The notes beneath the pieces are model-generated. The model saw only the letters and a program-made list of their open reading frames with translations. It was not told the DNA's origin and did no database searches. Positions 45,975 to 46,875 of a stretch of 64,000 bases of DNA are shown here, one piece after another. Made by a program: the position numbers and the translations under genes. The stretch's first letter is position 1. Every line of letters starts with the position of its first letter. Source of the DNA: Scytonema tolypothrichoides VB-61278 (GTDB lineage: Bacteria > Cyanobacteriota > Cyanobacteriia > Cyanobacteriales > Nostocaceae); assembly GCF_000828085.3 (NCBI RefSeq), contig NZ_JXCA02000030.1, forward strand, positions 100,846 through 164,845. Direction: 5' to 3'.

Positions 45975-46016
45975 GGTTGGATTCTCCTAAAAAACAAGAA
46001 ATGAGAGGTTAACACT

Positions 46017-46049
46017 AAAAAAGCCCAGAACCTTTGCTGTTCCGGGCTT
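46017..46049 (-). terminator. Attenuator terminator 2 of aroF
   Basis: On the minus strand AAGCCCGGAAC (46049-46039) pairs with GTTCTGGGCTT (46031-46021) around a 7-base loop and runs into a T-tract, 43 bases before the aroF start. Its 5' arm CCCGGAAC can instead pair with GTTCCGGG (46085-46078), the last codons of leader peptide 2. Confidence 0.85.
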
Positions 46050-46074
46050 GAAAGATTCATCGACATGATGCTAT

Positions 46075-46137
46075 CTACCCGGAACTTATTCGGGACCAAA
46101 AATAAAAGCCATAAAACCAGGTATTGGGATAGATCAT
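46075..46137 (-). CDS. Aromatic-rich leader peptide 2 (MIYPNTWFYGFYFWSRISSG)
   Basis: 20 codons plus TAG. Eight of 20 residues are aromatic, clustered as WFYGFYFW at positions 7-14. AAGGAG occurs 15 bases upstream of the ATG, a rather long spacing. The final codons AGT TCC GGG carry the segment that can pair with the 5' arm of the following terminator, so a ribosome finishing the peptide would mask it and one stalled on the aromatic cluster would leave it free. This is the arrangement of trp/phe-type attenuators. Translation is inferred, not shown. Confidence 0.8.
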   Translation of the reverse strand: MIYPNTWFYGFYFWSRISSG

Positions 46138-46156
46138 GACGATGAAATTGAACTCC

Positions 46157-46193
46157 TTAAAAAAACAAAAACCGCAGAGTGCGCTCTGCGGTT
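46157..46193 (-). terminator. Attenuator terminator 1 of aroF
   Basis: On the minus strand AACCGCAGAG (46193-46184) pairs with CTCTGCGGTT (46179-46170), loop of four, followed by TTTGTTTTTTT. It lies between the two leader peptides. Its first four bases are shared with the competing hairpin at 46190-46239. Confidence 0.88.
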
Positions 46194-46239
46194 CACCGGG
46201 CGGTTTCCATTAGGAAACTGAATTCACCCCCGGTGAACC
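46190..46239 (-). promoter_or_regulatory. Putative antiterminator hairpin of attenuator 1
   Basis: On the minus strand GGTTCACCGGG (46239-46229) pairs perfectly over 11 bp with CCCGGTGAACC (46200-46190), with an inner GTTTCC/GGAAAC stem (46218-46213 and 46208-46203). The 5' arm lies in codons 14-18 of leader 1. The 3' arm overlaps the first four bases of terminator 1, so the two folds exclude each other at that point. Confidence 0.75.
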
Positions 46240-46280
46240 ACCTTAAACCAAAAATAAAAATAGGAATGACTGCAATACAT
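46224..46280 (-). CDS. Aromatic-rich leader peptide 1 (MYCSHSYFYFWFKVVHRG)
   Basis: 18 codons plus TGA on the minus strand. Codons 7-12 read Tyr-Phe-Tyr-Phe-Trp-Phe, and Tyr is also at 2. No clear Shine-Dalgarno precedes the ATG. Codons 14-18 contain the 5' arm of the hairpin that competes with terminator 1. It is the first of two such leaders before aroF and its sequence outside the aromatic run is unrelated to the second. Confidence 0.75.
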   Translation of the reverse strand: MYCSHSYFYFWFKVVHRG

Positions 46281-46327
46281 TTGTTCGGCGTTTTATTAGA
46301 TAACTTAATTTACACTCATGTTTCATG

Positions 46328-46356
46328 ACCTTAACATAGAAAACGAGTTCCGTCAA
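46328..46356 (-). promoter_or_regulatory. Candidate aroF promoter
   Basis: On the minus strand TTGACG (46356-46351), 17 bases, then TAAGGT (46333-46328) fit a sigma-70 promoter. Predicted start near 46321, about 40 bases before leader peptide 1, giving a leader of roughly 350 nt before aroF. Confidence 0.5.
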
Positions 46357-46449
46357 GAAAGCCATAACGCCTGAAAAAGCGTTAAGCTTAGTACAATTGG
46401 TGAAAGTTAAGCCATATTGCTAGCATGAGCTAGTAGCTCAACCTAATTA

Positions 46450-46875
46450 AACGTAAAATGTCCGCCCAAGAGCGAAAGGCAGTATAGACGTGTTGCAAGA
46501 GCGTCCGCTTTGCGCTCAGCGGTCAGACAGCGCGAATGACGGCTTTCCAACGCGGCTATGCTCCACTTGGGAAGCCAGTGCGTTGGCGGGGTTCCCGAGT
46601 GACTGCGTTGGGCGGGTTTCCCCACTTGAAGCATGTGGCGTCCCGCTTAAAGCACCTGGCGTGAAACCCCAAGACCCCACTGGCTCCTCACTTGGCGACT
46701 GCGTATCTCCTGAGGCCTATGGCTAACGCCACGGCTTCGCCTAACGGGCACGGCCTCGTGCCGAACGGAGACGCTAAGCGCCAAAGGCGCATGCTGCCCG
46801 TATCTCCTGCGGAGACGCTGCGCTAACGCTAACGCCCTTGGCGCGCCGCAGGCATACCCGAAGGGCTTTCCGTAG
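46450..46875. repeat. Mosaic of GC-rich palindromic repeats
   Basis: About 425 bp with no gene, made of recurring words such as GTATCTCCTGCGGAGACGC, GCTAACGCC, GGGTTCCC and ACGGGCACG, many self-complementary. G+C is far above the flanks. It separates the aroF promoter region from the next gene. Such islands are typical of repeat-rich filamentous cyanobacteria. Confidence 0.7.

Follow-up and report, generated by a model that had tools for sequence, protein, structure and literature searches.

The enterobacterial trp and pheA attenuators have a four-segment layout. Stalling of the ribosome on codons for the end product selects an antiterminator over a terminator in these leaders, as described in PMC11802643. 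Ribosome-mediated attenuation has also been described before a DAHP synthase gene, in Corynebacterium glutamicum aroR-aroF, where the leader peptide contains aromatic codons (Neshat 2014 as described in PMC11802643; PMC4046766). A uORF and a terminator are predicted before the DAHP synthase gene aroF in Acholeplasma (the uORFC-13-1 motif; PMC8632094), and a single attenuator has been suggested for E. coli aroF and is listed for Shewanella (PMC8632094, PMC2659441). Leaders with two serial units are known as well. Salmonella mgtCBR, called a singular example in PMC3641672, carries a pair of leader ORFs and a pair of attenuators in a single leader, and tandem T-boxes and riboswitches place two sensing units in series (PMC9413887, PMC3641672). 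Until a 2010 survey added its own case from Firmicutes, the leader-peptide systems known to it, apart from ermC, were all from Proteobacteria and Actinobacteria (PMC2965389).

The leader described here is found in the cyanobacterium Scytonema tolypothrichoides VB-61278, where it occupies 46280-46012 of the minus strand and precedes a DAHP synthase gene. Positions are those of the window, the whole stretch of 64,000 nucleotides that was analysed (contig NZ_JXCA02000030.1, positions 100,846 to 164,845), and the features are collected in Table 1. The enzyme has 290 residues, and its best solved relatives include proteins of similar length, e.g., 1vs1 and 1zco. Among the named orthologue loci the closest is that of Brasilonema bromeliae, with 97% protein identity. 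A domain search detected five PF00793 genes in the genome, so the leader-linked enzyme is one of several entries to the pathway; this enzyme lacks the ferredoxin-like domain PF18152, present in the single paralogue that was tested. These observations do not sustain the suggestion, made in an earlier note on this DNA, that the leader could be the main feedback device for the whole aromatic pathway. A terminator-like hairpin (45144-45120) is present at the 3' end of the gene, which looks monocistronic. On the other side, upstream of the promoter-like site, there is a G+C-rich, repeat-like stretch (46443-46726) with short ORFs on both strands.

Table 1. Features of the two-module leader and its gene, in window coordinates
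Feature	Position	Strand	Remarks
Promoter-like site	46356-46328	-	TTGACG 46356-46351, 17 nt, TAAGGT 46333-46328; weak -10 hexamer
Module 1 leader ORF, MYCSHSYFYFWFKVVHRG and stop	46280-46224	-	Reading frame kept across leaders
Module 1 segment A1, GTGGTTCACCGGG	46241-46229	-	Within last codons of ORF 1
Module 1 apical hairpin, GTTTCC-loop-GGAAAC	46218-46203	-	Inside antiterminator
Module 1 segment B1, CCCGGTGAACCGC	46200-46188	-	Pairs with A1; overlaps 5' arm of terminator 1
Intrinsic terminator 1 and U-run	46194-46159	-	Hairpin 46194-46169
Module 2 segment S1, TTCATCGTCATGA	46146-46134	-	Contains start codon of ORF 2
Module 2 leader ORF, MIYPNTWFYGFYFWSRISSG and stop	46137-46075	-	Reading frame kept across leaders
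Module 2 segment A2, AGTTCCGGG	46086-46078	-	Last three codons of ORF 2
Module 2 segment S3, TCATGTCGATGAA	46068-46056	-	After stop; pairs with S1, hiding start codon of ORF 2
Intrinsic terminator 2 and U-run	46049-46012	-	Hairpin 46049-46021; 5' arm includes segment B2, 46046-46039
DAHP synthase gene	45974-45102	-	Presumed regulated gene; PF00793; no ferredoxin-like domain found

The earlier note had proposed two serial attenuators of the same architecture, and this description holds: both modules are present on the minus strand, each with a tiny ORF, a pairing segment and a terminator. A1 and B1 form 13 pairs, and seven bases of B1 are common to terminator 1; in module 2 the partner of A2 is the 5' arm of terminator 2. 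Since the antiterminator and terminator of each module use common bases, the two conformers are mutually exclusive. The helix between S1 and S3, at the start codon of ORF 2, had been missed. ORF 2 begins just 21 nt after U-run 1 in the window, too little room for a separate ORF 2 promoter, and both attenuators are probably carried by one transcript, which may start near 46321. The promoter-like site is absent from the computed list of signals for the window. A TTGAC occurs no more than 120 nt upstream of the module 1 ATG in 89 of 90 Nostocales-like leaders, and in 52 of the 90 it is 76-78 nt away. In two leaders with module 2 only (L194, L195), a TTGACA element is located roughly 90-110 nt upstream of ORF 2. 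Module 1 shows no clear Shine-Dalgarno sequence, which speaks against the attenuator reading. A Phe/Leu-rich frame that overlaps ORF 1 (ATG 46326) was considered as the leader ORF and rejected; it is not the conserved frame.

The leader is best explained, with high confidence, as a pair of serial ribosome-mediated transcription attenuators that each respond to Phe, Tyr and Trp alike. In each module a ribosome would trail RNA polymerase through a tiny ORF bearing Phe, Tyr and Trp codons. If any of the three charged tRNAs were scarce, the ribosome would stall on the aromatic run and leave segment A free; A would then seize the 5' arm of the terminator, and the polymerase would continue. With all three charged tRNAs plentiful, a ribosome at the stop codon would cover A, allowing the terminator to form. 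The polymerase would have to clear both terminators, so that the readthrough fractions should multiply. Translation, stalling, termination in the cell and this product rule are inferred; the ORFs, pairing segments, terminators, their conservation, the covariation of most helices, the tandem arrangement and the link to the enzyme are observed. With described leader-peptide attenuators the leader shares an ORF with codons for the end products, a terminator before the gene, an alternative helix that cannot coexist with the terminator and would be covered once a ribosome reached the stop codon, and a gene of the pathway concerned.

Both ORFs are retained in close relatives. The near set comprised 21 orthologue loci (the window's genome included) and 80 named loci, overlapping in species, with 90 distinct leaders. 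Both ORFs are present in 20 of the 21 and in 77 of the 80; L013 in the first set and L055, L068 and L079 in the second are truncated where a contig ends. Loci with the pair include L091 of Nostoc punctiforme NIES-2108 and L090 of Chlorogloeopsis fritschii PCC 6912. For L018, L019 and L021 the module 1 ORF, and for L105 the module 2 start, were set by hand, the pattern having failed there. The 90 Nostocales-like leaders were used to build one alignment per module.

Codon positions in these 90 leaders were counted back from the stop. In ORF 1, positions 8-12 are aromatic in 89, 90, 90, 84 and 89 leaders and position 7 in 75; in ORF 2, positions 7-10 and 12-14 are aromatic in 89, 90, 90, 89, 90, 90 and 88. 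The aromatic character is kept even where the residue is not. For example, position 9 of ORF 1 is Phe in 79 leaders and Tyr in 11. Tyr codons also vary synonymously (TAC 68, TAT 19 at position 12 of ORF 1). The N-terminal codons of both ORFs vary across the 90 leaders, and the last codons are kept at the letter level, as expected of a pairing segment. Free variation of aromatic and other codons alike would, by the earlier note's own criterion, have counted against its proposal; it is not seen. ORF 1 has 17-20 codons, mostly 18. Three codons separate the last Trp from the V(H) codons in 116 of the 126 module 1 peptides, a spacing that fits a ribosome footprint just clearing segment A.

Peptide counts and folds were extended to 36 distant leaders, which were chosen for divergence rather than at random and do not include leaders read later in the census. 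Phe, Tyr and Trp all occur in the module 1 peptide of 89 of 90 near and 35 of 36 distant leaders, and in the module 2 peptide of 90 of 90 and 34 of 36, respectively. A division of labour by amino acid between the modules, suggested earlier, is not supported by this codon content.

The distribution of the leader was examined in 388 genomes drawn evenly from the class, with covariance models for module 1 (R1) and module 2 (R2). At E 0.01, R1 matches 138 genomes in 72 of the 160 genera and R2 matches 114 genomes in 66; the leaders fall under 17 family labels, including that of G094, a divergent case. Matches to the two models are adjacent on the same strand in 104 genomes, with a median gap of 5 nt between model ends. 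All 34 genomes with R1 and no adjacent R2 were read: 27 have an ORF of the module 2 type, six have none, and one leader is decayed. The six with module 1 only are G343 and five genomes of one family (G049, G083, G096, G117, G129). Eight genomes were matched by R2 only. Two of these (G094, G189) have module 1 on reading, two (G260, G376) are without it, and in G355 a contig end cuts the leader, with a module 1-like terminator still in view. The other three (G235, G294, G359) had weak module 2 matches and were dropped, there being no DAHP synthase in the fetched stretch.

The link with the enzyme is strict in this sample. A protein search of the 388 genomes gave a match at E 1e-90 or better in 145 of them. 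Those in G059 and G108 (54 and 52% identity) were counted as paralogues; the remaining 143, all with at least 62% identity, were taken as orthologues. The leader precedes 143 of 143 orthologues, that of G355 being cut by the contig end. An R1 match is found 52-347 nt upstream, on the same contig and strand, in 134 of them. Reading of the other nine showed both ORFs in six (G094, G169, G189, G240, G350, G381), module 2 only in G260 and G376, and the cut leader of G355. Four further leaders have no orthologue match at the threshold: the decayed one of G152, and those of G145, G163 and G291, which have both ORFs and contig ends. The total is 147 leaders: 137 with both ORFs, six with module 1 only, two with module 2 only, one decayed and one cut. 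Among the leaders with both ORFs, 104 were assigned by the models and 33 by reading, in which the ORFs were checked and not every helix. The tandem arrangement is thus conserved in the near set and in most leaders of the class sample. Each module is found alone, in six and two leaders, and so each is probably self-sufficient.

Module 1 of G094 retains the layout with most letters changed; it has no Tyr and was missed by R1. In that leader (L234), about 320 to 220 nt upstream of the gene, module 1 was read as MNNFRFNFWFVEGT with a GTG start and a stop codon at its end. Module 1 of G350, one of the weaker far leaders, reads MFCPAGFYLGWHSLVHRL before its stop. The decaying copy (G152:C48, L177) has an intact module 1 ORF, but a fragmentary DAHP synthase frame follows immediately on the terminator region of that module. 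An orthologue match with one in-frame TGA (G164:C1:3292649-3293467) still has both modules. Within the window's own genome the module 1 model gave one strong match, the next being at E 8.7, and no aromatic ORF was listed when the regions upstream of its four remaining DAHP synthase genes were scanned. A pattern scan of nine paralogue loci (L022-L030) likewise detected neither module.

Most leader helices covary. In module 1, 97.4% of the alignment cells in A:B and its hairpin are paired, and 5 pairs and 10 cells are changed on both sides (0.6 and 0.6 in shuffled alignments). Slid controls of A:B pair in 26 to 52%, and one of them (26% paired) also has 5 both-side pairs, with 7 cells. Inspection by eye shows A1 and B1 changed together in L018 and L021. 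The module 1 terminator is 99.2% paired, with 2 pairs and 4 cells changed on both sides, and the module 2 terminator has 16 such cells compared with 3.3 in shuffled alignments, 14 of them in one pair. The A:B helix of module 2 is 93.5% paired and nearly invariant, and two slid controls score higher on covariation; since this helix hardly varies, covariation speaks neither for nor against it. A terminator finder succeeded for 243 of 251 modules and missed eight.

Equilibrium folding of complete modules was tried as a test and gave no clean switch: the mean terminator probability was 0.60 to 0.72 with a stalled ribosome versus 0.92 to 0.94 with a ribosome at the stop codon. The terminator is thus likely in equilibrium folds despite the stall, and the model depends on the antiterminator arising ahead of it while the RNA is still being made. 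Co-transcriptional folds were then made, with the 5' arm of the terminator emerged, the 3' arm not, and a ribosome mask of 12 nt from the start of the A-site codon. With the first aromatic codon in the A site, segment A captures four or more bases of the terminator's 5' arm in 90 of 90 near and 33 of 33 distant leaders for module 1, and in 87 of 89 and 30 of 31 for module 2. With the ribosome on the last aromatic codon little of A is exposed in module 1, and the same capture occurs in only 19 of 90 and 9 of 33; for module 2 it occurs in 87 of 89 and 28 of 31. With the ribosome at the stop codon the mask itself makes capture zero, and this value is not independent evidence.

The two modules differ in these folds when no ribosome is present. 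In Nostocales-like leaders, A captures at least 4 arm bases in 90 of 90 untranslated module 1 folds versus 57 of 89 for module 2. When the start region is left off, module 2 rises to 85 of 89 and module 1 stays at 90; in the distant set module 2 rises from 21 to 28 of 31, and in the window's own module 2 the captured bases go from 0.0 to 9.0. A refinement of the explanation given above, rather than a replacement for it, is that the modules form a starvation-specific pair. Without a ribosome, module 1 would read through and module 2 would tend to terminate, as S1:S3 hinders A, and readthrough of both would need a ribosome that starts ORF 2 and then stalls. This refinement is possible and, on balance, doubted. 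The effect of the start region favours it, and so does the helix itself, which is 76.9% paired and has 38 cells changed on both sides versus 17.3 in shuffled alignments and 13 to 24 in slid ones. The S1:S3 pairing of a Nostocales-like leader outdoes shuffled sequence in 85 of 90 cases and cross-species pairs in 63 (p 6e-5). A comparable helix between start and post-stop regions was sought in module 1 without success (own -7.4 versus shuffled -9.0; better in 14 of 90). However, one slid control of S1:S3 likewise has 10 pairs changed on both sides, and S1:S3 and A:B could coexist as a pseudoknot, which the folds used cannot represent. Among 34 distant leaders, moreover, S1:S3 is better than shuffled in 17 only (p 0.29), and the set as a whole gives no significant signal, although individual cases stand out. 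Such strong start-codon/post-stop helices occur in L195 (-29.5 kcal/mol), L194, L213 and L216, with sequences unlike those of Nostocales.

Taken further, the leader may be an ancient cyanobacterial two-stage attenuator, in which stage 1 would open on aromatic starvation or on translation failure and stage 2 only for a ribosome that has started and stalled. This idea is offered tentatively and is rather unlikely. If it were true, the pair would separate amino acid starvation from a general loss of translation, and its retention across the class would mean that cyanobacterial ribosomes follow the polymerase closely enough to control intrinsic termination.

The proposed sensing of codons can be compared with arrest by the nascent peptides. 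As in TnaC, the peptide itself would bind a free aromatic amino acid and thereby halt its ribosome; the signal would not be uncharged tRNA at aromatic codons. Within the Nostocales-like set the cores YFYFWF and WFYGFYFW are indeed strongly conserved. In distant families, however, the aromatic residues differ in order and identity (L187 has FYFWWQPSVH and WYYGFFYTTG, L199 has FFFGFYFWTR), and their number changes little, with means of 6.2 and 7.2 in the distant leaders versus 6.5 and 8.5. A changing order with a stable number is expected of codon sensing rather than of a fixed arrest motif, and peptide arrest is considered quite improbable.

Action in trans on other genes, by short terminated RNAs or by the peptides, has a parallel in peTrpL of Sinorhizobium, which is reported to act in this way (PMC7298713). 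The two terminators should give short RNAs here too, of roughly 160 and 310 nt. Conservation tracks the cis pairing, though, and with the enzyme link strict in the sample a trans role is unneeded; it is judged very unlikely. Least credible, indeed most improbable, is the view that the ORFs are incidental and that the leader binds a metabolite, as a riboswitch, or a protein: the leader is structured and deeply conserved, as such an element would be, but reading frame, aromatic codons and stop position are all kept, and with Rfam release 15 neither the window nor the leaders at nine other loci gave a match at gathering score. At a relaxed threshold the best match was a microRNA family (E 0.014, 23.9 bits compared with a cut-off of 90). 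The sole Rfam match among the nine other loci is a tRNA gene elsewhere in L090.

The covariance models were also used to ask whether the modules have a common origin. Applied to the window's module 2, the R1 model scores 13.7 bits (E 0.024 in 601 bases), and an opposite-strand match scores higher (16.7 bits); R2 gives 2.1 bits on the module 1 side. The modules share, by eye, FYFW-type cores and GTTC/GAAC arms. An ancient duplication behind the two modules is possible, and their sequences, called unrelated in the earlier note, may be distantly related; the earlier statement that they are not recent duplicates is supported.

A leader before each of 143 sampled orthologues would extend leader-peptide attenuation to another phylum. 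Coupling of transcription and translation in cyanobacteria would become testable with a small native reporter, and the tandem leaders (137 of 147), set against lineages with a single module, offer a natural series for gauging what a second attenuator contributes. The leader is also relevant for engineering aromatic production in cyanobacteria. A literature search, in which coverage of subscription papers was poor, returned nothing on this leader, and a term search of the main text of three papers on cyanobacterial RNA (PMC4734099, PMC2662882, PMC1242208) returned no DAHP synthase leader. Attenuation itself is known; the class-wide, tandem, tri-aromatic cyanobacterial version appears to be undescribed.

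Each of the known systems differs from it in some respect. The enterobacterial trp and pheA attenuators have one module and respond to one amino acid, whereas here two modules are present and segment A sits in the terminal codons of the ORF. C. glutamicum aroR-aroF, set apart by its description in PMC11802643 and PMC4046766, is actinobacterial and has one leader peptide with a Phe-Tyr-Phe run. The uORFC-13-1 motif, as presented in PMC8632094, has one module for which at least one Phe codon is named, and its 24 sequences come from Acholeplasma and environmental DNA. Tandem T-boxes and riboswitches sense RNA or a metabolite directly and have no leader peptide (PMC9413887, PMC3641672). In mgtCBR, according to the account in PMC3641672, the signals are ATP and proline, the structures are unlike intrinsic terminators, the effects are additive, and the gene is not biosynthetic; by codon content, the two modules of the cyanobacterial leader do not appear to be tuned to different signals, and both would report on the same three end products of the pathway that their gene serves.
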